DNA of 31,438 nucleotides from a virus: positions 1-31,438 of the IMG/VR virus record IMGVR_UViG_3300045953_000016, one strand, 5' to 3'. The notes beneath the pieces are model-generated. The model was not told the origin of the DNA and did not search any database. It saw only the letters and a list, made by a program, of their open reading frames with translations. Positions 902 to 19,088 of this stretch are shown one piece after another. The position numbers and the translations under genes were made by a program. Numbering within the stretch: position 1 is the stretch's first letter; each line of letters starts with the position of its first letter.

Positions 902-1055
902 TCCATTCGGTCCTAACTGCACCAACCTTGATTCTTGTAAGATGTGTGGAATCAATCTCACACACGTAAACGTCGCAATAGTCTTGTGCCCCGACTCGCG
1001 TGGACTTATTTCCACAGATAGGACACACGATATTCGGAACTGATTTGTCTGTCAT
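858..1055 (-). CDS. Small zinc-ribbon protein (65 aa)
   Basis: The 65-aa product has CPIC near residues 11-14 and a second pair in YCDVYVC, a probable four-cysteine zinc ribbon, then a hydrophilic tail. Its ATG overlaps the stop of the polymerase gene upstream (ATGA), and its end overlaps the start of the primase-like gene, so it sits in a translationally coupled chain. Small zinc ribbons recur through this arm. They could bind nucleic acid or act as protein adaptors, but nothing in the sequence decides which. No enzyme motif is visible. Confidence 0.7.
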   Translation of the reverse strand: MTDKSVPNIVCPICGNKSTRVGAQDYCDVYVCEIDSTHLTRIKVGAVRTEWNELASVNNGPTQGT

Positions 1056-3631
1056 GCGAGGAACTGCTCCGTTACTGTTAAGGGTCTATTAGTTAGTGGG
1101 ACTTTAGGTTCATTCGGAACAATAATCAAGTCCTTGAACTTCTTCAAGTCCTGATAGTTCTTGCCGACTTCAATGTCGCAAGGAATAATTAACTCATGTC
1201 GTGGAAGCGAACATCTACTGAAATCGATAGGGCGCTCCATTTCCCGTTTGATGATGGGTATCCACAGTGCTTTCTTAGAAACCGGAATACTAAATAGGAG
1301 TGCATCATGTGATTCCATAACAATTTTAATTGTGGGAATCTGGTGTCGGATTCGTAGTGCAGCGGCTTTAGTGTTATCTGACACCGCCCTTTGTGGAAGA
1401 TACGAGAATCCCATTCTGAATAGTTCATCTCCCATCCTTTCAAAGAAAGTTCTCCTACCACCCATAGATGCATCTACACCATATGGAAGTGGAGCGATTA
1501 GTTGACGGTTTCTTTTGAGGCAGTCGATGACTTGGGCTTGGAATACACCCTGGATTCGCGGAGACTTTGAATGGAAAACAAGTAGTGCCCGCTCCGCAAC
1601 CGCTTCCGTAATGCTAATAGGGATTTTATACTTACGTGCTTGGGTATTAAGCTCAGTTGCTGCTCTACGCTTTCCGGCCCCAAGATGACCAGCATGGCGA
1701 AGTGTCTTTCCAGCAAATCGTATAGGATGTTCATAACCCAGAGCCTTTTTGCTATAATCAAGTTCAGTGCCACCGAAAAACCAAGAAGCAGTGAGAGCGT
1801 GAATGTCGTGTTCGTCATACATCCTCAAGGTTCTCTCGTCATCAGCTAATAGTGCTACGACTCTAGCTTCAGCCTGAGAACTATCTGCTTGAACGAATTC
1901 TTCTTCTTCCTCTACTTCCGCTATGAAACCATCGATGAATACAATATGGTGGTCATCGGGGACATACATCGAACGCACGTCCTGTCCGATATCACCATGT
2001 TTGGTCATCGTCTGAAAGGCAGTGCCGAGAGGTTTGTCTTTCTTTTTTCCAAATTCATCATGGACTTCAACGACTGGTCGTATGGGTGGGTCTTGCTGTC
2101 CGGTTGATGTTCGTCCCGTATCAAGACAAGGAAAATAGGTAGTCCGCATCCTCTTATCATAGTCTGGCAAAGCCATAAGATAAGTAGATACCGTTTTGCG
2201 AACCCTTCTTCCTTCCAGAATAAGCTCACATACTCGTCTGTGGGTAGGGTTTTTGAGTGCAGTCTGCGAGTTAAGCAGAGCAGTAATATCTTCTTCTCCC
2301 GTAGTAGGCTTCGGAGGGAGCTTGAAATTATCCCACAGGAGCGACTTAATCTGCGTATGCGAGTTGACATTTATCTCAGCCCCTACTAGACTGAATAGTT
2401 CGTAACGGACGTTTTCATCCCACGCAATATACTTGCGAATAAGTCTCTCTCTAGCCTCTGCGTCAACACGAAAGCCCTGATTCTCGATTGACCAATACAA
2501 ATCGGGCAATCTGAGGAGGAAGTTTTCGTAAAATGGTCGCATTCCAAGTTCGTCGAGGTCACTGTCCATGTTCTCGTCAATTTCAATTGTGACACAGGCA
2601 TCCTTACCACATCCGTTGAATAGGTCTTGGATGGTTCCGTGATACATTCCCTCGTCTTTATAGAAGGGTTCTTCGGTAAAGATAGAGGTATTGAAAGCGA
2701 GGTTCTTGGGTAGTTCTGGGTTAATTGCGAACGATTTAAGAAGCGTATCAGAGGCGATTCGTCTAATAACAAATCCAAGCCTCTTGAGCTTATCACGGTC
2801 GTAATTAAAGTTCTGTCCAACAATGTCATTCTCCCATAGCATCTCAGCTAATATAATCCATATCTGAACCATATCAGCGGTTGGAATAGATGACAGACCA
2901 TCAGAGTTCCAGAGAGGAACTACTATCGCATGATGGCGGTCGAATGATAGTCCCATGCACACAGGTATACAGGTTCCATTAGCTTCAATGTCTACCGCCA
3001 TCCGTTTTTTCTTACCACGGTAGCGGTCGCGGAACGCTGCTAATTGTGCGGAGGACCGACAAATTTCAATGGTGCGCGAGGGGAGGTTTAATTCTCGGAA
3101 GGACGATTGATGTAAGGCTCGTTTGAAATCAAACAGAATAATCTGTCTATTCCAATATCCCTTGAACTCTACATCAGTAGCTTGCCATGACAGATGTTGT
3201 GGATTGTAAGTGGGAATAAACTTACGCCCCATGCCATGCATGATTGAGCCGCGATACTGGGTTATCTTATCCTTACCAGACAAGGCCCATAGCGCACCCT
3301 TACCAAGTGCGAGGATACAGTTAGGCTGCACCCCATTAATTTCTTCCTGTAGTTCTTTTAGTTGTTGGTCTATATCGATTCCCGCGTTCCTCGCTCTGAC
3401 GTGGAATGGAATCTTCTTACCAACTCCATTAGGTGGAACCTCGAATTTACTTACAGTAGATTGCCAACAATTCTCCTTACGAATGCCAGCATCCACTAAT
3501 AACTGATTAAGGTCGCCACTCTTAGCGAATGGTTTCCCCGCAATAGTATCGTGATGAGTCGGAGAGTCTCCGAGTATCATCATTTTGGCCCCACCGGGAC
3601 CGAAGCCAGGGATATACTTCTTATCGGTCAT
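1052..3631 (-). CDS. Family-A DNA polymerase with N-terminal uracil-DNA-glycosylase-like domain
   Basis: Likely the replicative polymerase, about 859 aa. An N-terminal domain of roughly 175 residues has family-4-like UDG motifs: GDSPTHHD with GKPFAKSG, and later NPQHLSW. A DnaQ-like 3'-5' exonuclease follows: VDIEANG (Exo I, D-x-E), GQNFNYDRDKL (Exo II) and CGKDAC (Exo III Asp). The polymerase domain has motif A QADSSQAEAR, motif B RFAGKTLRHAGHLGAGK and motif C ESHDALLF. In motif B the usual RxxxKxxxFxxxYG reads RxxxKxxxHxxxLG. A run of glutamates (VEEEEEF) precedes motif A. I prefer ATG 3631 over GTG 3670 because ATG 3631 lies inside the stop region of a 51-aa gene (11-nt overlap). UDG-polymerase fusions are known in some phages; SPO1 is my recollection. 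Confidence 0.93.
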   Translation of the reverse strand: MTDKKYIPGFGPGGAKMMILGDSPTHHDTIAGKPFAKSGDLNQLLVDAGIRKENCWQSTVSKFEVPPNGVGKKIPFHVRARNAGIDIDQQLKELQEEINGVQPNCILALGKGALWALSGKDKITQYRGSIMHGMGRKFIPTYNPQHLSWQATDVEFKGYWNRQIILFDFKRALHQSSFRELNLPSRTIEICRSSAQLAAFRDRYRGKKKRMAVDIEANGTCIPVCMGLSFDRHHAIVVPLWNSDGLSSIPTADMVQIWIILAEMLWENDIVGQNFNYDRDKLKRLGFVIRRIASDTLLKSFAINPELPKNLAFNTSIFTEEPFYKDEGMYHGTIQDLFNGCGKDACVTIEIDENMDSDLDELGMRPFYENFLLRLPDLYWSIENQGFRVDAEARERLIRKYIAWDENVRYELFSLVGAEINVNSHTQIKSLLWDNFKLPPKPTTGEEDITALLNSQTALKNPTHRRVCELILEGRRVRKTVSTYLMALPDYDKRMRTTYFPCLDTGRTSTGQQDPPIRPVVEVHDEFGKKKDKPLGTAFQTMTKHGDIGQDVRSMYVPDDHHIVFIDGFIAEVEEEEEFVQADSSQAEARVVALLADDERTLRMYDEHDIHALTASWFFGGTELDYSKKALGYEHPIRFAGKTLRHAGHLGAGKRRAATELNTQARKYKIPISITEAVAERALLVFHSKSPRIQGVFQAQVIDCLKRNRQLIAPLPYGVDASMGGRRTFFERMGDELFRMGFSYLPQRAVSDNTKAAALRIRHQIPTIKIVMESHDALLFSIPVSKKALWIPIIKREMERPIDFSRCSLPRHELIIPCDIEVGKNYQDLKKFKDLIIVPNEPKVPLTNRPLTVTEQFLA

Positions 3632-3776
3632 AGTCACGGATAATCCACTCGTAGAAGCCACCACGTTCACGCATCAATCTTTCTAGCGTGTCTCTAAATT
3701 CCTCCCACGATTTGACCGTAATCCTGAACGGCGGTTCGTTGTCGAATTTGATATGGAACTTATACACTTGCGGCAT
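3621..3776 (-). CDS. Small conserved-looking protein (51 aa)
   Basis: A short frame starting MPQVYKFHIKFDNEPPFRI and ending FYEWIIRDYDR. It looks like a beta strand pair followed by a helix rich in Glu and Arg (SWEEFRDTLERLMRERGG). It ends 11 nt inside the polymerase gene, which argues for translational coupling and for the polymerase ATG at 3631. I recognise no family. Its reading frame overlaps the second half of the upstream zinc-ribbon frame, so one of the two may be a shadow; the amino-acid make-up of this one looks the more natural. Confidence 0.65.
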   Translation of the reverse strand: MPQVYKFHIKFDNEPPFRITVKSWEEFRDTLERLMRERGGFYEWIIRDYDR

Positions 3777-6621: not shown

Positions 6622-7473
6622 CTACTCCTTAACAAACGTGTTGGTTGGTGGTTTGTTGGTTGTTGGTTGTGGTTGTTGTGGTGGTATTCTTTCGACAGGT
6701 TTTTCTAGCTTCAACTTCAGAATCGCTGGAGCAATCCACTTCTCATACAGCGGCTGATTGTTGAAGATAATCTTCCTGTCTAATGGGAGAGAAGTGCGAG
6801 CATAATCATTACCAGTATGACTGGTGAATAGACCATACTCCCCTTCATCAGTTTCCGCGAAGCCGGGCTTCACATCGAAATGATATACCTCTTGCATTCC
6901 AGAGGCAATCTTTCCTGAGATTTTGTCCCCACCTGTGATGATGACTCTGCTATGGTGAGTTAGCTTATTCTTATCGTCGTCCTTACGCTGTCCTACAACG
7001 TGGGCGATAAGAATGATGTTGCACTTATGATAACCGTGGATATCTTTTAGGCATTGAAGCAGGTCTTGAAAGGCCGATGCTTCTGCATTGTATTCTTCTA
7101 GTCCTGACACGTTAATCGTGCCAATCATCTTACCTTCGCCTTTACCCTGTTTCTGCTTACGGGTCTGCGAGGTCATGTTATCGCCAATAGACGTTACACT
7201 ATCAACGATAATAGTCTTATACGGGCAATTGACTTGGAAGGACTTGAGCTTAGCGTATGGCTTATCCCAATCCTCATAGTCATCGTAGTGAACTTCCTTC
7301 ATATTGACTCCCCATCGTTTCGCGGGAAGCATTAGTGCCTGCATCTTACGGTCTGTTGATACCCAATACTGTGGCGTAGGAAAGGATAAGGCACACGTAG
7401 ACTTTCGTGTGCCTGGCTCCCCCTTGAGCATCACAAACAAACCGTCAAGGTTTACGAACTCAAGTGTTGGCAA
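6622..7473 (-). CDS. RecA-like phage ATPase (AAA_24 type)
   Basis: The 283-aa product has a P-loop GEPGTRKST at residues 18-26 and a Walker B strand KTIIVDS with Asp91, then a polar strand IILIAHVVGQ typical of RecA-fold sensors. The Gly that usually precedes the P-loop lysine is Arg23, which I have seen in phage ATPases of this group. A Pro/Gln/Thr-rich tail (residues ~262-283) is likely disordered. The start is TTG 7473 with GGAG six nt upstream, overlapping the previous gene by 14 nt. Paired with the ssDNA-binding protein downstream, it probably acts in strand annealing or recombination. Confidence 0.85.
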   Translation of the reverse strand: MPTLEFVNLDGLFVMLKGEPGTRKSTCALSFPTPQYWVSTDRKMQALMLPAKRWGVNMKEVHYDDYEDWDKPYAKLKSFQVNCPYKTIIVDSVTSIGDNMTSQTRKQKQGKGEGKMIGTINVSGLEEYNAEASAFQDLLQCLKDIHGYHKCNIILIAHVVGQRKDDDKNKLTHHSRVIITGGDKISGKIASGMQEVYHFDVKPGFAETDEGEYGLFTSHTGNDYARTSLPLDRKIIFNNQPLYEKWIAPAILKLKLEKPVERIPPQQPQPTTNKPPTNTFVKE

Positions 7474-8497: not shown

Positions 8498-8579
8498 CGT
8501 CTTTCCAATCTTTGTGCATTAGTCCACTCTTGGCTAGAAGAATGGCTACAATTATGAGCGCAACTACAACCCATTCCAT
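8490..8579 (-). CDS. Membrane peptide (29 aa)
   Basis: ATG 8579 overlaps the stop of the nuclease gene (TAATG) and opens MEWVVVALIIVAILLAKSG, almost all of it one transmembrane helix, with a short charged tail KDWKDDE. Its stop overlaps the start of the next membrane protein by 8 nt. The perfect fit into the overlap chain and the coherent helix make it credible despite its size. The function is unknown. Confidence 0.65.
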   Translation of the reverse strand: MEWVVVALIIVAILLAKSGLMHKDWKDDE

Positions 8580-9628
8580 TACTCACCTACTTCATCGAAG
8601 GTGTCATTATCATTGACAGGATTCCATTCAGGACCAATGATGAATAGCTTCTTGATTTCTTCCTCACGCATGTTCGGATTAGCTTCACAAACAGGGAGGA
8701 ATGCACAGTTACCGTATTTGCCTTCACAGTGGTCGAAGTTCGGTGGAAAGTGTCCAGTCTCCGCATACATCAGGAGTAGCTTGCTATAGAATGGTAGAGT
8801 CTCGCCTTGCCATTCCAGCAGTCTATCTGCACTGTATGATACAGGTGGACGCTTAAACTTTTCCTCTGGCTTCAGTGTTTTCTGGAAGCCAATTTTATTC
8901 AGGAATACGTTTCGCGTGTCCATGATGAGACACTGTCCTATGAATTGGTTATTCATAGAGATAGTGTTTCTGTTTTGCTTCATGGTTTTATGGTCTACTG
9001 GATATATCCCTTGATTTGTATCGCAGGTTAGGTCCAGTTTGGCTTTCCACAGGACACGGATTTCATCGTCCTCGTAGAGAACCTTACCCTTTACTACTTC
9101 TACTTCCAGCGGAACCCAATGGTCATTCCGATAGAAGTTATAATACTGGTCAATGGTATCGAGAACCCACTGCCAACCAGTCTTATACTTCTCTCTAGGA
9201 TTCTGAGCATCAGGTTCTTTGGGCGTATTACGAACGCCCGGAAATTCAAAAGGTTTATGTCCACATGGAGGCTTAGGCCATTCCTCAGTAGGGACAAATA
9301 CAGCACAACCACGGCATCCTGAGATATACATCTCGGCAGCAGCGAGGCCATACTGGTGTGACGTTTCTCTTTTAAGGCCAGCTATGAGGTTACGATTGTA
9401 ATACTCCAAGTAGGTATGAACGATGGACCCACACTCTAGCGAATTACTCTTACCCGCGATAGACACGAAGTTATGATTAAAGCGGAAATCAGCCAGACGG
9501 GGACACCCCATAAGTGTGGTCAGTATTTGACTGTCCAGAATGATATTCGATTTACCACCCATCGGAGTATCTACAATCTCCTCAAGTGGTATCTCGTTAA
9601 TAGTCCGCTCGTCTGGCTGGATATCCAT
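8579..9628 (-). CDS. Cas4/AddB-like PD-(D/E)XK nuclease with probable Fe-S cluster
   Basis: The 349-aa product has the superfamily's order: Cys42 in MGCPRLADFRF, an early His in ECGSIVHTYLEY (His71), a later Asp in WKAKLDLTC, and the catalytic PVDHKTM (D-x-K). Three C-terminal cysteines (about 301, 308 and 314, in CEGKYGNC and LPVC) with Cys42 fit the 4Fe-4S cluster of Cas4, AddB and phage exonucleases. It probably resects DNA ends for recombination or packaging. It sits among replication genes rather than beside any CRISPR array, so a phage recombination role is favoured. Confidence 0.85.
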   Translation of the reverse strand: MDIQPDERTINEIPLEEIVDTPMGGKSNIILDSQILTTLMGCPRLADFRFNHNFVSIAGKSNSLECGSIVHTYLEYYNRNLIAGLKRETSHQYGLAAAEMYISGCRGCAVFVPTEEWPKPPCGHKPFEFPGVRNTPKEPDAQNPREKYKTGWQWVLDTIDQYYNFYRNDHWVPLEVEVVKGKVLYEDDEIRVLWKAKLDLTCDTNQGIYPVDHKTMKQNRNTISMNNQFIGQCLIMDTRNVFLNKIGFQKTLKPEEKFKRPPVSYSADRLLEWQGETLPFYSKLLLMYAETGHFPPNFDHCEGKYGNCAFLPVCEANPNMREEEIKKLFIIGPEWNPVNDNDTFDEVGE

Positions 9629-10606: not shown

Positions 10607-12790
10607 CTATTTGAAAGTAGCGAGTTGCGTTACCTTAATGGGCTGCTTACCCTGAGCCTTCATCTTCTCAGCGAACTTCTTACAAATGGTGTTCGCTAGT
10701 TCACGCATTGCATCGTCTTGATTCCACGTCACAATCTCACCCTTATTGTGAACTACGTGGAAGTAACGACGCTTACGGTCAACCATCACATCCAGATATT
10801 CATCCGTTGTTCCGGCTGCTTCTGGATTGATAATGGTGATTTGTTTGGACGCCTGACCGATACGCTTGAAACGTCCCGGCGCGGCTTGGTCCTCATTCTG
10901 TGGATTCCACTGTCTCTCGTGGAGAATAGCAGTATCGCACGTCTGTAGATTGAGTCCCTCACCACAAGCTAGAGTCGAGGCAATCAGAATGCAACGCTTG
11001 GTAGCATTGAACTTATTCTGAATGTCAGTTCCTTCAGGCTTGCCAGTGTGTGCCGAGGTATATTGCATTACCTCGATACCCTCATCCTTTAACGCTTGTG
11101 CCAGCTCGTGCCAGTCCACGTTAGAAGATGCGTCAGTGTTAGTCAGCGCGTTAGCCATCAACACGCCAACATCACGATGATGCACGAATACTACAATCTT
11201 CTTATCTGATTCTTCAACCCAATCTTCCAGATAAGAGAGTGTAGCAGGAATCTTTGCGAGGCCACAGATATGACGCATCCGTGTGAGTTTCGCAATGATT
11301 TCCATTCCTGATGTGGATTCTTCCTCACCACCAATTACGATGTTATTCCACCATTCAACGAATGATGAAGTAGCATCATCATAGTTGGTCTGAGATAGCG
11401 CGTCCAGCTCCACAGGGAGTTTATCACGCTTAACCTCAGGATATTCATCCATTACCTCATCGTATTCACGACGGATAACGATGGACTCCACATACTTCTT
11501 GAACTTCTCTACGTTCTTGATACCGCCCATCTTACGCTTATTACCGTGCCAGTAGTATTCCACCCACGTATCGAGGAAGTGCTGATTCGAGTGGAACTTG
11601 ATGGGGTCGATAATGTTCAACGCAGGGAAGAACTCACTCCCACGATTTTTCCACGGTGTGCCGGACAATTCAATGACCTTGCACAGTGGATTGGCCGATA
11701 CCAGCTTACGCACTTCTTGTGTGCGTGCGCTATCGACATTCTTAATCTGCTGAACTTCATCGAGAATTACGAGGTCGATACCGAGCGCGTGGAGTTTCTC
11801 ACGCTTGAACCTACGCAGCATATCATACGAGATGATATACATATTGAGGTTCGGCATCAGGAAGTCTTTCGACGTTCTGATGATTTGCGCGAGATAATCA
11901 GGACCAAGCCAGTTAATACCAGCAGCGAACCACTGATACATAATGGCCGACTTGGTTACGACCATCGTTTTCTTGAACTTCTTCTTACCATGCTTGCCCA
12001 TGCCATAGAAGTAGAGAATCATGAGCGCCTGTATGGTCTTGCCGAGGCCCATCTCATCGAAAATCCCTACTCCCTTGCCCATAGACAAGGCAGATTCAGC
12101 GAATAGCGCGCCATCTACTTGGAACTTGAATGGCCTGAACTCTCCACATTCTAGGCACTGATTCTTATTCCACTTGTGATTGCACGCTGCAATCTCAGGC
12201 TTCCACCAATTTGAGACGATGGAATCGAAAGCCGTCCCGCGAGGAATGACCTTCTTGATAATGTGGAAGCATTCGAGAGTAATCAGTTTTACTTGATTAC
12301 CATGATGGTCCACACCATTGACAGAGAACTTCTCGACAGCAACCTTACCACACTCAGGGCACTTATCCTGTAGTCTGGTAACGACGTGCTTAACGTCACG
12401 AACTTTTGTGACTACTTCTCGTTCTTCCACGATAATCTCTACGCTATGTCCTGAGCGAATAGCGTCGATAACGTGTGCTGGCATTGACAATGTGGAGCAC
12501 GCTTCGGTATTGTCACAACCAATCTCACGCGCTTTTGTGGCCCATACAGGACCATGACCATATCCCGGCCCAACAAGAGCGTGGGCAATCTCGTGGAGTA
12601 TGGTGCAAATTACTTCAGACTGTGGATGGATATCGATATGATGACCATTGAGCATAATCACCTTATCTTTATACATGCACATTCCGAGGAATGGCAGATT
12701 GGGGTCAGATGTTACTCTAACTTTCCAATCTTTCAGGCCGTGGAGATTTAACTTCTCACGGCAAAAGTCTGTTGCGTCGCTTCTATTCAT
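10607..12790 (-). CDS. SprT-like zinc metalloprotease fused to SNF2-family helicase
   Basis: The 727-aa product joins two enzymes. Residues 1-100 are SprT/Spartan-like: HEIAH at 66-70, then GHGPVW at 78-83, the usual third zinc ligand region. Two cysteine groups follow (CPEC at 144-147; CNHKWNKNQCLEC at 203-215). From residue 220 comes a SNF2/DEAD helicase: DEMGLGKT (motif I), LDEVQQ (II), LSGTPWKNR (III), STLACGEGLNLQ (V) and WNPQNEDQAAPGRFKRIGQ (VI). Motif VI has one extra residue against the common form and Gln before WNP. SprT proteins cut DNA-protein crosslinks; SNF2 motors move along duplex DNA. The fusion suggests removal of proteins from phage DNA, which is inference. GAGAGAGG precedes ATG 12790. 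Confidence 0.92.
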   Translation of the reverse strand: MNRSDATDFCREKLNLHGLKDWKVRVTSDPNLPFLGMCMYKDKVIMLNGHHIDIHPQSEVICTILHEIAHALVGPGYGHGPVWATKAREIGCDNTEACSTLSMPAHVIDAIRSGHSVEIIVEEREVVTKVRDVKHVVTRLQDKCPECGKVAVEKFSVNGVDHHGNQVKLITLECFHIIKKVIPRGTAFDSIVSNWWKPEIAACNHKWNKNQCLECGEFRPFKFQVDGALFAESALSMGKGVGIFDEMGLGKTIQALMILYFYGMGKHGKKKFKKTMVVTKSAIMYQWFAAGINWLGPDYLAQIIRTSKDFLMPNLNMYIISYDMLRRFKREKLHALGIDLVILDEVQQIKNVDSARTQEVRKLVSANPLCKVIELSGTPWKNRGSEFFPALNIIDPIKFHSNQHFLDTWVEYYWHGNKRKMGGIKNVEKFKKYVESIVIRREYDEVMDEYPEVKRDKLPVELDALSQTNYDDATSSFVEWWNNIVIGGEEESTSGMEIIAKLTRMRHICGLAKIPATLSYLEDWVEESDKKIVVFVHHRDVGVLMANALTNTDASSNVDWHELAQALKDEGIEVMQYTSAHTGKPEGTDIQNKFNATKRCILIASTLACGEGLNLQTCDTAILHERQWNPQNEDQAAPGRFKRIGQASKQITIINPEAAGTTDEYLDVMVDRKRRYFHVVHNKGEIVTWNQDDAMRELANTICKKFAEKMKAQGKQPIKVTQLATFK

Positions 12791-13978: not shown

Positions 13979-14237
13979 AATATTAGTGTCCTCGAAAGTG
14001 GACCGTGCGCTGCCTGACAATATTGCAAGTCTCATGCCGGAGCTAACCCCTTGCAGGTCAACAACTTACGTTTTTGAAAGTCGCCTAAATCACCGACTTC
14101 TGACCCTTTTGTCTACCAAATGACGGACTTCTCGTGTGTCCTCTCCAGGTGACACTTTTATTATCAAGTTCCGACGATACATTCAGAATTAAAATATTCA
14201 ATAGTTGTTGAACAATAACCGAAAATTCAGTTTACTT
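13979..14237. promoter_or_regulatory. Non-coding region upstream of the leftward operon
   Basis: No gene is supported here. A leftward promoter is expected but not clear: TTGAAT and TATCGT 16 bp apart on the minus strand, near 14175-14200, is the best weak match. Dyads include AAGTCG (14078-14083) with CGACTT (14094-14099), and TTGTTgAACAA (14205-14215). AAGTCG recurs in the 26-bp repeats further right, so it may be a protein-binding half-site. Confidence 0.4.
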
Positions 14238-14303
14238 CATACCTAAATCCGCCCTAAATCCCCCCTATATCTACCCTATATCCTCCCTAAATCCGCCCTG
14301 AAA
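14238..14303 (-). repeat. Left array of six 11-bp tandem repeats (iteron-like)
   Basis: Six contiguous 11-bp units follow one another, for example CCGCCCTAAAT (14249), CCCCCCTATAT (14260), CTACCCTATAT (14271) and CCTCCCTAAAT (14282); the outer two are degenerate. The consensus is roughly CCNCCCTAWAT. Read on the minus strand it becomes AGGGNGG plus an A/T trio, close to the units of the right array, so the arrays face each other. Eleven bp is about one helical turn, which places every unit on the same DNA face. Confidence 0.85.
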
Positions 14304-14321
14304 TTTCGGGCTTGACTTCGG

Positions 14322-14347
14322 CTAAGTCGCTCTGCCTGAGGCACTTA
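14322..14347. repeat. 26-bp direct repeat, left copy
   Basis: It begins CTAAGTCG and ends GAGGCACTTA, and matches the copy at 14559-14584 in 22 of 26 positions; the changes are one base in the left part and three in the centre. TAAGT and ACTTA form a short dyad inside the element. A second small hairpin, GACTT-CGGCT-AAGTC (14314-14328), overlaps its left end. Confidence 0.8.
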
Positions 14348-14436
14348 CGGCCCTTTAGGGCGAACCCCTCCCCCTCTGGCTATGTATATACCCACGGTAT
14401 GATAGTCCTATATAGTGGACAGGCAGGTGTGAGGGG

Positions 14437-14479
14437 ATTATAATATTATATAATAAAAAAAAAAAAAAAAAATAATAAA
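14437..14479. other. 43-bp uninterrupted A/T tract with A18 run
   Basis: All 43 bases are A or T, with A18 at 14455-14472. It lies between the two repeat arrays and is flanked by GTGTGAGGGG and CCCCACACAC in inverted order. It is a good candidate duplex-unwinding element. The homopolymer length may be affected by sequencing error. Confidence 0.75.
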
Positions 14480-14558
14480 GATATACCCAACCCCACACAC
14501 CCCTCCACAGGAGCCTAAAAAGGTGGGTATCGACATAGGGGGAGTAGGGGGGTTCCTC

Positions 14559-14584
14559 CTAAGTCGTTCTAACAGAGGCACTTA
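14559..14584. repeat. 26-bp direct repeat, right copy
   Basis: This is the second copy of the CTAAGTCG...GAGGCACTTA element, in the same orientation as the copy at 14322-14347 and with 22 of 26 identical bases. It lies between the A/T tract and the right 11-bp array, so each side of the core has one 26-bp element and one array. Confidence 0.8.
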
Positions 14585-14595
14585 GCCCGAAAAGT

Positions 14596-14650
14596 CAGGG
14601 GAGGATTAGGGAGGAACGAGGGGAGTTTCAGGGGAGAATGAGGGGAGAAT
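14596..14650 (+). repeat. Right array of five 11-bp tandem repeats (iteron-like)
   Basis: Five contiguous 11-bp units: CAGGGGAGGAT, TAGGGAGGAAC, GAGGGGAGTTT, CAGGGGAGAAT and GAGGGGAGAAT. The consensus is YAGGGGAGRAT. The reverse complement of the left-array unit (AGGGAGG plus ATTT) is close to it, so the two arrays are inverted relative to each other around the A/T tract. Confidence 0.85.
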
Positions 14651-14723
14651 CAGCTATGCAGATGCGATAATATTATGATTTTAAAAGTCTAAAAGTTTCT
14701 GACTGTAAAAAATATTATAATCA

Positions 14724-14818
14724 GGATTAGCTATTAAATACTTGCCGTAGGCAAACTATGTTGGATTAGCTAAGGGCGTGGCTTCGCAGCTCGGATTAGC
14801 TGACAAAGTGGATTAGCT
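14724..14818 (+). repeat. Four copies of GGATTAGCT
   Basis: Exact copies start at 14724, 14763, 14793 and 14810, with steps of 39, 30 and 17 bp. The irregular spacing excludes CRISPR and simple tandem duplication. They lie between the origin candidate and a leftward terminator, and could be binding sites for a phage regulator or initiator. Confidence 0.75.
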
Positions 14819-14834
14819 ATTGGGGGGACTTCCG

Positions 14835-14877: not shown

Positions 14878-15051
14878 CTAGCGAGCGACTTGGAACCCCT
14901 CGTAACGCCGCGCTTTGTTCTGGTGCGCGGTTACGATAATCTGAAGTGCATCCTCACGAGGGATACCAGCTCGGACCAGAACCGCGATAGCCTTACGCAG
15001 TGCGCGGTATTCCGAGAGTGACAGCGAAACGAGATAAACGCCATAGTCCAT
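14878..15051 (-). CDS. Small helical protein (57 aa) beside the origin candidate
   Basis: The product starts MDYGVYLVSLSLSEYRALRK and continues with a helix pair and basic tail (AGIPREDALQIIVTAHQNKA, RRYEGF). AGGAG lies 9 nt before ATG 15051, and a terminator follows the stop. G+C looks higher than in the large arms. It is the second gene of a separate two-gene leftward unit and may be an early regulator or DNA-binding protein; no family is recognised. Confidence 0.7.
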   Translation of the reverse strand: MDYGVYLVSLSLSEYRALRKAIAVLVRAGIPREDALQIIVTAHQNKARRYEGFQVAR

Positions 15052-17099: not shown

Positions 17100-17398
17100 G
17101 AATTATTCTTCTACTATCGCTTCTCGTGTCCGGTTGTGCAACCACATGGTCACAACTAGGATATGAGAAGGTCGGTCCAGTAGAAGCTGAGATATGGCGT
17201 AATAACAAGACCGGCTCCTGTGAGAGACGAGTCTATCTAGATTCAATGTATTTCCATACTGTGGTGAACTGTGATGATTACAAGGCGAGAATTACTCAAG
17301 ATGTTCGCGGCTACGCCTTTCCTAGTGACAAGCGCGAGGCCGAAACTAAGTCCATCTCCAGAAGTAATACAAGAACGATTTCAGATGGCATTCGATAA
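17096..17398 (+). CDS. Lipoprotein (100 aa), possible outer-membrane spanin-like
   Basis: From ATG 17096 the product begins MRIILLLSLLVSGCATTWSQ: a short charged start, a hydrophobic stretch and the lipobox LVSGC, so signal peptidase II would leave a lipidated Cys at residue 14. The mature part (~87 residues) has strands EIWRNNKTGSCERRVYL and YFHTVVNCDD. Two further cysteines may form a disulfide. Its last 128 nt overlap the large terminase frame. A frame starting at 17057 adds 13 residues that would spoil the signal. Spanin-like or superinfection roles are possible. Confidence 0.75.
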   Translation: MRIILLLSLLVSGCATTWSQLGYEKVGPVEAEIWRNNKTGSCERRVYLDSMYFHTVVNCDDYKARITQDVRGYAFPSDKREAETKSISRSNTRTISDGIR

Positions 17399-19088
17399 AG
17401 GGTTCTGGAAACCCAATAAGAAACAGGAACTATTCCTCTCCTTACCGAATTCCATCTTTGAGGGATTCTACGGAGGGGGTAACGCTTCTGGTAAGTCGGA
17501 CGTTCTACTAGTCTACGGACTAATACATCGTTGGCATGAGAACCCAAAGTTCAAACAGGTTTTCATGCGGCGAACTTATCCTGAACTAAAGAATGAAATA
17601 GTTCCCCGAAGTCAGGAGATATATCCGAAGTTCGGGGCAGTATTCAATAAGACTGATATGTGTTGGCGGTTTCCGCGTCCTGATGAGATTGGCGGTTCAG
17701 GCGCGAGGACTGGAGCACACATATTCTTAGGGCATTGCGAGACTGAAGATGATGCTCATAAATACGACTCAATGGAAATTAATCTCTTTACTCCCGACGA
17801 ACTTACGACCTTTACTGAATTTATATATCTACATATCGGATTCACCCGAGTCCGAACTAGCGACTCAAATCTTCCTGCAATCATTAGGGCCGCAGGAATG
17901 CCCGGAGGAATCGGGCACACATTTGTTAAGAAAAGATTCATTGCTCCCTACCCTGCTGGTGGAAAGGTTATTGTCGGAAAAGGAAACGTAAAGCGATTCT
18001 ACGTCCATTCGACAGTAAGTGATAACCCACACGCGGATAAGGAGTATAGCGCAAGACTTGATGGTATTCCTAGTGAGGCCGAACGAAAAGCGAGGAAGTT
18101 CGGTGATTGGGATGCTTATCAGGGTCAAGTATTCGATGAGTTCCGGGATAGACTATATCCTGATGAACCCGATAATGCGCTACACGTAATACAGCCGTTC
18201 GATATTCCATCGTGGTGGCCCCGAATGTTTATCGGAGATTGGGGCTTCGCTGCGATGACCTATATGGGATATTACGCTATATCCCCTGCTAAGCGAATGT
18301 TCCTGTATCGTGAACGTTACTGGCTCAAGACTAAGATTGAAACTTGGGCACCCGAAGTGAAGGCTGACATTGAGCGAGAACAACCAAGAGTTATCAAGTT
18401 CTGTCAGTCCGTCGGACAGGAACGCGGGCAGGAACACACTATACAACAACAAATCGAAACTGCAATTGGCAGACCTATCGAACTATCTGTTAATAGTCCT
18501 GGGTCAAGAATTAGCGGAAAGCTACTACTTCACGAATATCTCAGGTGGAAACCGAAGCCAATAGTTCCACCTTCTGATATGCCAGTATATTCGGAGGAAT
18601 ATGCCATGTGGCTACTCCGAAATAAAGGCATGATTGATTACAAGAATTATCTCGCACTATTCGACCCTCCTGAACCGGAGAGTAATATACCGAAATTGCA
18701 GATATTCCTGTGTGATGTTCACAAGATAAGTCACGAGGAATGTTCTAACTGTTGTCCGCTAATGATTGAATCTATTAAAGCCTGTAACTATGATAAGGCT
18801 ACTAAAGAAGGGAAGCCTGCTGAGGACGTTGCTCAGTTTGCTGGTGACGACCCTTACGATGATATTCGTTACGCTTGCGACTCAGCGGAACGATATTTTG
18901 AAACAGCAGCTCAAGAATTTGCAAAAGTTCAGAAGCAGGCTGAATTAACACAAGCACTAGCGAATAGTCAGGATTGGACAGCCTTCTATCGAAATGCAAG
19001 GAAACTAGAATCTACTGAAAGACCTATGCAAGCAGTTTCACGCTTTCATAGAGCAGGTAGTAATCGTTCTAGGAGATGGGGACGATAG
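17271..19088 (+). CDS. Terminase large subunit with Tat-like N-terminal extension
   Basis: The packaging motor, up to 605 aa. The ATPase has Walker A GGGNASGKS (residues 68-76) and an acidic DEL (176-178) after a hydrophobic stretch, as in Walker B of TerL. The nuclease domain shows FIGDWGF with Asp323, the first RNase-H-fold Asp, after the typical GDWDAYQGQVFDEF. From ATG 17271 the N-terminus reads MMITRRELLKMFAATPFLVT, a twin-arginine-like leader like that of the 115-aa early protein. ATG 17385 (567 aa) would avoid most of the 128-nt overlap with the lipoprotein gene. The tail is Arg/Ser-rich. Confidence 0.9.
   Translation: MMITRRELLKMFAATPFLVTSARPKLSPSPEVIQERFQMAFDKGFWKPNKKQELFLSLPNSIFEGFYGGGNASGKSDVLLVYGLIHRWHENPKFKQVFMRRTYPELKNEIVPRSQEIYPKFGAVFNKTDMCWRFPRPDEIGGSGARTGAHIFLGHCETEDDAHKYDSMEINLFTPDELTTFTEFIYLHIGFTRVRTSDSNLPAIIRAAGMPGGIGHTFVKKRFIAPYPAGGKVIVGKGNVKRFYVHSTVSDNPHADKEYSARLDGIPSEAERKARKFGDWDAYQGQVFDEFRDRLYPDEPDNALHVIQPFDIPSWWPRMFIGDWGFAAMTYMGYYAISPAKRMFLYRERYWLKTKIETWAPEVKADIEREQPRVIKFCQSVGQERGQEHTIQQQIETAIGRPIELSVNSPGSRISGKLLLHEYLRWKPKPIVPPSDMPVYSEEYAMWLLRNKGMIDYKNYLALFDPPEPESNIPKLQIFLCDVHKISHEECSNCCPLMIESIKACNYDKATKEGKPAEDVAQFAGDDPYDDIRYACDSAERYFETAAQEFAKVQKQAELTQALANSQDWTAFYRNARKLESTERPMQAVSRFHRAGSNRSRRWGR

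Follow-up and report, generated by a model that had tools for sequence, protein, structure and literature searches.

The window analysed here is an IMG/VR virus record of 31,438 bases, linear, in which two blocks of genes point away from each other. The leftward genes form a replication block (UDG-PolA, Sak4-like, exonuclease-like and SprT-SNF2), and the rightward genes comprise the terminase large subunit (TerL) and the structural block. Between them, in non-coding DNA left of the gene c1, lies a symmetric repeat structure (Table 1); c0 follows about 1.7 kb downstream of it and TerL about 2.8 kb downstream. Judged by its position, c0 may be a small-terminase-like protein. The three proteins adjoining the site—a 57-aa protein (14878-15051), the 127-aa c1 and the 244-aa c10—carry, by eye, short helical motifs of similar appearance (GIP/VIP...A...V) close to the C-terminus.

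Table 1. Genes and sequence elements at and around the symmetric site (window coordinates)
Feature	Position	Strand	Evidence or remark
UDG-PolA DNA polymerase	1052..3670	-	part of the replication module with which the architecture is found
Sak4-like gene	6622-7473		leftward block
Exonuclease-like gene	8579-9628		leftward block
SprT-SNF2 helicase-like protein	10607..12790	-	
c10, 244 aa	12999..13733	-	adjoins the site on the left; predicted to have a zinc-ribbon-like start, a coiled coil and C-terminal helices
GTGTCC...GGTGACAC site	14136-14155		related to the GTCC-N8-GGAC palindrome
Left 11-bp array, 5.6 units, CCTAAATCCGC type	14242..14304		Tandem Repeats Finder, period 11, score 75; 0/500 shuffles
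Left 26-nt imperfect dyad element (CTAAGT...ACTTA)	14322..14347		repeat search; also in relatives
C-rich block	14355..14383		inverted-pair search; inverted partner of 14529-14562
GTCC-N8-GGAC palindrome	14405..14420		read from the sequence; similar sites in relatives
Promoter-like TGGACA-17-TATAAT, runs into the A/T core	14416..14444	+	consensus match only, seen in the window
A/T core, 43 bp, with A18 at 14455-14472	14437..14479	+	least stable 50 bp of the window falls here
G-rich block	14529..14562		inverted-pair search; inverted partner of 14355-14383
Right 26-nt element	14559..14584		repeat search, 85% identity to the left element; also in relatives
Right 11-bp array, opposed, 5.4 units	14595..14653		Tandem Repeats Finder, period 11; 0/500 shuffles
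c1, 127 aa	15126..15509	-	right neighbour of the site in 22/22 sources
c0, 188 aa	16163..16729	+	weak HTH match; directly upstream of TerL
Terminase large subunit (TerL)	17271..19088	+	

Read from the outside in, the site is built of opposed 11-bp arrays, 26-nt dyad elements, inverted C-rich and G-rich blocks, a GTCC/GGAC palindrome and an A/T core. The first-pass annotation had described arrays of six and five units, duplicated 26-bp elements and a 43-bp core with A18, all of which were recovered here by independent searches or located directly in the sequence. It had also listed a 9-of-10 inverted repeat, for which the inverted pairs 14355-14368/14549-14562 (86%) and 14368-14383/14529-14544 (81%) are the candidates. 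A repeat search placed the opposed arms at 14235-14312 and 14584-14661, i.e., 78 nt with 72% complementarity, 271 nt apart. Match scores at lag 11 reached 36 and 29 of 44 in the two arrays, the best value elsewhere in the window being 26 (mean 11.0, sd 2.9); over lags 8-24, only 11 and 22 stood out in both arrays, and 0/500 dinucleotide shuffles of either 200-bp flank matched the observed score. The proposal that the 11-bp period keeps the units on one helical face holds inside each array but not between them, because the length of the A-run varies among relatives (about A15 to A28) and the phase between the two arrays is therefore not fixed. Four GGATTAGCT copies lie right of the right array at 14724-14821 (14724, 14763, 14793 and 14810), and similar CGATTAGC motifs occur on the right side of the core in some relatives, e.g., L015. 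In the genomes scanned, most occurrences of the palindrome ATAATATTAT (window 14668-14679) fell less than 1 kb from the core.

We collected relatives of the locus from IMG/VR—80 loci by the window terminase, 64 by c1 and 34 by c10, in overlapping sets. The A-run lies left of c1 in all 22 sources and right of c10 wherever the left flank is present; c1 and c0 occurred in 22/22 sources and c2 in 21/22, while c10 was found in 12. Each contig in the set examined that holds the core has a single run of at least 11 A, with the exception of G012, which has one at both of its overlapping ends, and contigs that break at the core have no run of this length. In G012 (L108-L110), the runs at the two ends differ by one base, A21 against A20, which suggests either slippage during sequencing or a population in which run length varies. 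Across 21 loci (L060 being omitted), 31 of 34 arrays (13 left, 21 right) had scores reached by 0/500 dinucleotide shuffles, the remaining three being equalled by 1, 2 and 4. At 26 further loci, some of which represent the same virus twice, 0/200 shuffles were as good for 14/14 left and 21/26 right arrays; no clear right array was seen in L163 (where the chosen run is possibly not the core), L153, L156 and L158, and that of L129 was weak (9/200).

Clear arrays are missing in some relatives (L060/L153, L156/L215, which is G021, L158 and L163). The first three of these kept the A-run while at least one side was without clear 11-bp arrays, and such relatives are a natural set for tracing the array binder. 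Pooled units (235, taken from 58 arrays in 37 cores and restricted to arrays scoring at least 27) read TTC[C/T] followed by genome-specific letters, with C preferred at the eighth place, the TTC being favoured by construction because the units were phased on it. Relatives thus keep the architecture while the letters of the repeats change. Absence of the repeats from relatives with the same gene order had been named at the outset as evidence against an origin; what we found is that architecture and gene order recur together. A DNA search of phage records returned only short, mostly A/T matches, and a search of bacterial genomes with the window TerL returned no relative.

The two arrays change jointly. 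In 24 cores with both arrays—excluding L163 (poor) and the duplicates L180 and L206—the unit profile of the left array was set against that of the right one at the best phase, and removal of the near-duplicates L031, G009 and L191 left 21. Here, the mean distance between the left and right arrays of the same genome was 0.352 vs. 0.487 (sd 0.014) after permutation, with 0/100,000 permutations as low. The matching is imperfect: eleven foreign right arrays were equally close for L142, and four each for L013, G009, G002, G010 and L131. This same-genome match implies either that one protein reads both arrays or that the arrays exchange sequence, and therefore a joint function of both.

The stability of 50-bp stretches was calculated from nearest-neighbour energies. 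The core contained the least stable 50 bp in seven of the ten complete or near-complete relatives (G009, G012, G002, G010, G021, G022 and G026), ranking second in G023, 7th in G024 and 11th in G025, the contig of which ends near the core. A-run and weak core are retained in G021, where clear arrays are missing, and in the four maps examined the core falls within the largest or near-largest intergenic gap. The minimum of the detrended cumulative GC skew was located within 3 kb of the A-run in 10/10 of these contigs and within 130 bp in 4/10, at −78 in G009, +2562 in G012, −50 in G002 and +1738 in G010, and at distances of about 2.1 kb in G021, 0.12 kb in G022, 1.4 kb in G023, 1.5 kb in G024, 2.9 kb in G025 and 0.04 kb in G026. 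The maximum lay 17-18 kb left of the A-run, near a convergent gene switch (maps of G009, G012, G002 and G010). A skew turning point, suggested earlier as a check on the origin, is thus present near the core, but it coincides with the switch in gene strand. Codon-position skew gave no separate replication signal: coding-strand GC3 skew of the minus genes just right of the core was +0.256, +0.242, 0.0 and +0.023, reversed in 0/4 maps, so gene orientation is enough to explain the turn. We therefore rejected GC skew as independent proof of an origin, since it tracks the gene strand.

The comparison also covered more distant phages. The window polymerase matched 27 phage records, all below 60% identity, of which 8 were examined, together with 4 of 712 terminase relatives and all 4 relatives by DUF3987, three of which were already included. 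By BLASTP of the G009 genes, UDG-PolA and DUF3987 were common to LS06, Mel-JY34, MW202489, MW202554, Kuura, vir526 and ABTNL-3, the further matches being two more genes in Mel-JY34, TerL in MW202489 and one capsid-region gene in MW202554. MW202455 matched by the polymerase only, EBPR podovirus 3 (EBPR3, a partial record) by DUF3987 only, and phiM6, MW202701, CRP-1 and HTVC033P by TerL only. Under a strict definition, the best inverted arms of a genome had to be centred within 150 bp of its least stable 50 bp; these scans of arms and stability were designed after LS06, the first distant example, had been seen. Strict coincidence was found in four of the seven phages with both polymerase and DUF3987 (Desulfofustis LS06, Mel-JY34, MW202489 and MW202554) and in 0/4 TerL-only relatives, and was absent in MW202455, Kuura, vir526, ABTNL-3 and EBPR3. 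In the window's own family, the window itself, G002, G010 and G008 showed it and G009 and G012 did not.

A rank test, which counted the other centres whose arm score was as high or higher, gave 0/504 in the window, 0/1021 in G008, 4/797 in G009, 0/747 in G012, 0/773 in G002 and 0/751 in G010. The four distant phages with strict coincidence scored 0/722 (LS06), 0/727 (Mel-JY34), 0/651 (MW202489) and 0/720 (MW202554), and of the other phages with both genes, two more stood out by rank, vir526 (2/718) and Kuura (12/711), ABTNL-3 being weak (25/706). Single-module phages gave 4/631 (EBPR3, DUF3987 only) and 241/721 (MW202455, polymerase only), and TerL-only phages 0/1117 (phiM6), 891/893 (MW202701), 225/798 (CRP-1) and 319/799 (HTVC033P), the last two as 49-kb stretches of longer records. 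The architecture is therefore associated with the UDG-PolA and DUF3987 module in phages that share little else. Its form varies: short opposed repeats plus three 17-bp direct repeats surround an A17 run in LS06, GGGCAGTT repeats are opposed across A12 in Kuura, TTTTTGCA-type repeats occur in vir526, and A/T-rich opposed arms (40661-40801) in ABTNL-3. An exception to a clean split by module is phiM6, whose high-ranking arms are CCTTAAGG-type palindromes, unlike the repeats described above. They cluster at the least stable point (L227:6198-6333, about 55.2-55.3 kb of the record), and the cluster is possibly phiM6's own origin or control region.

The first-pass annotation had recognised no initiator, and none was found here either: among the proteins scanned, no cognate initiator for the repeats was recognised. 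The genes c0, c1 and c10 are present in 10/10 complete or near-complete relatives, and presence or absence singles out no binder because the array-less G021 has them too. Two genes, c3 and one of 132 aa, are absent from G021 and present in the other nine, except that c3 is missing from G025 as well; this comparison involves a single array-less genome. Spearman coefficients between right-array and protein distances, with no phylogenetic correction, were 0.25 for c0, 0.04 for c1, 0.15 for c10 and 0.38 for TerL. The predicted structure of c10 (pTM 0.29) had no PDB fold match at E ≤ 0.001 and weak UBA-like matches, that of c0 (pTM 0.27) showed an HTH and helices only, and PDB and PHROG searches with c0, c1 and c10 gave no convincing match. 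A DnaA-dependent, oriC-like origin was rejected, as the strict DnaA box TTATNCACA was absent within 260 bp at 47/47 core entries. In the distant phage MW202554, a perfect DnaA box TTATCCACA stands beside the A/T core (L223:35925-35934), one of two strict matches in that genome.

Two hallmarks of an iteron-type theta origin—helically phased tandem repeats and an adjacent A/T-rich element of low stability—are present at the site. We consider it likely that the site is a replication origin, most likely theta-type and one per genome, of a tailed-phage family with genomes of about 45-49 kb, and we favour this reading over a terminus, a regulatory hub or a partition site. The initial designation as a candidate origin is the best-supported one, while the first reading as a whole is partly supported, the skew not being independent evidence. 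The location between the replication block and the structural block also counts in favour of an origin. Building on the anatomy, its recurrence, the matched change of the arrays, the weak core and the polymerase/primase association, we infer a series of binding, melting, helicase loading and bidirectional synthesis. A phage-encoded initiator would bind one 11-bp unit per helical turn and build two short filaments facing each other over about 300 bp, while other factors might occupy the paired 26-nt dyads and the GTCC/GGAC palindromes. The bound proteins would jointly bend the DNA and strain the A/T core until it melts, allowing the DUF3987 primase/helicase and the UDG-PolA polymerase to be loaded, possibly with one fork per side; the promoter-like match in the core could supply transcriptional activation.

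A role in packaging deserves the closest comparison with the origin reading. On this view, the small terminase would bind the phased arrays, and a cut in or near the core would leave the genome with either cohesive ends or one edge of a terminal repeat. The strongest evidence for such a role comes from Kuura, for which 606-bp direct terminal repeats are reported on the basis of PhageTerm (PMC9959647). The right copy starts at 43208, inside Kuura's symmetric site, between A12 (43141-43152) and the right arm (from 43219), and one region could serve both roles. The position upstream of c0 and TerL fits packaging as well, and contig ends gather at the A-run in 22/64 c1 loci and 7/34 c10 loci (counted by eye). 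The family's contig ends, however, lie scattered on both sides of the A-run, between about 140 bp to its left and about 50 bp to its right, and several contigs continue across it; such scatter is what a homopolymer assembly break would be expected to produce and argues against a terminus as the whole explanation, as do the unequal runs at the two ends of G012. Moreover, c0 shows strong conservation of its HTH region while the arrays change, and the design is also seen alongside terminases whose BLAST comparison with that of the window gives no meaningful match. Nor does it follow the terminase lineage: strict coincidence was seen in 0/4 TerL-only relatives, with phiM6 a partial exception by rank. 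On balance, packaging is an unlikely function of the site, which keeps some probability because of the Kuura repeat start. Telomeric or hairpin ends of the protelomerase telRL kind were rejected, the centre being an A-run on one strand that is not self-complementary and has no perfect central palindrome.

Transcription control is less probable still. In that case, the repeats would serve as operators from which early and late transcription diverge, with the core as a promoter, in keeping with the location between leftward and rightward blocks, the promoter-like match, and a GTCC-type palindrome that is also present upstream of leftward genes. Yet the promoter would point into the minus-strand c1, the true divergence lies about 1 kb to the right, and a run of A15-A28 where the genome is weakest is not something that an operator requires; taken together, we regard a regulatory hub as improbable. 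A centromere-like partition site has the least to recommend it. Plasmid R1 parC has two sets of five phased repeats (PMC4949242), and the phage site likewise has two sets of about five phased units, but its arrays are opposed and enclose an A/T core, and no partition NTPase was found among the part of the proteins scanned, which makes partitioning very hard to credit.

Known origins share individual traits with the site. Iteron origins such as the RctB-controlled chromosome 2, lambda O and iteron plasmids are generally one-sided or lie within or near the initiator gene. They also place repeats next to an A/T-rich element, whereas the phage site is mirror-symmetric, with no recognised initiator nearby. 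In herpes simplex oriS (Box 1/AT-rich spacer/Box 2), inversely oriented binding sites lie on either side of an AT-rich spacer, which binding may destabilise (PMC12543377); there, the boxes are single and the binder is of a known helicase type, while the phage site consists of 11-bp arrays, each of five to six units, that are separated by about 300 bp and have no known binder. The non-coding origin of the PLE satellite has iterons of RepA_N type with inverted sub-repeats converging on a poly-A tract (PMC7145576). The inversion there is inside each short iteron, in contrast to whole arrays opposed around one A-run, and no RepA_N protein was seen among the window-family proteins scanned. The description of the site as a new type is fair for the architecture, but opposed binding sites around an A/T spacer are already represented by oriS. 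A description of a mirror-symmetric origin architecture was not recognised in the open-access literature searched, which is no proof of absence. In kind, the site is most likely an origin that combines phased sites with an unwinding element in a mirror-symmetric layout.

More tentatively, such sites may constitute a distinct class of phage origins, defined by mirror symmetry and not by sequence, in which two opposed arrays that change together flank the genome's weakest point, and which travels with UDG-PolA and DUF3987 and is read by undescribed, fast-diversifying initiators—a proposal about which we are marginally more doubtful than convinced. For most uncultured tailed phages, origins are unknown and sequence similarity cannot find them; the present design is detectable without it, by inverted arms that coincide with the DNA of lowest stability. 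It singles out one position in each genome and directs attention to an undescribed initiator. In addition, the family is a natural series in which the recognition sequence has changed many times, with both arrays altered together, and co-variation across this series should help to identify the binder. A laboratory test is within reach in the cultured Caulobacter phage Kuura, where a version of the site is plausible, if weaker. Apart from the site, the locus L083 encodes a protein of unusual size (1692 aa; L083:7145-12223) at the end of the structural block, with a GHKL ATPase domain and weak similarity to rIIA.
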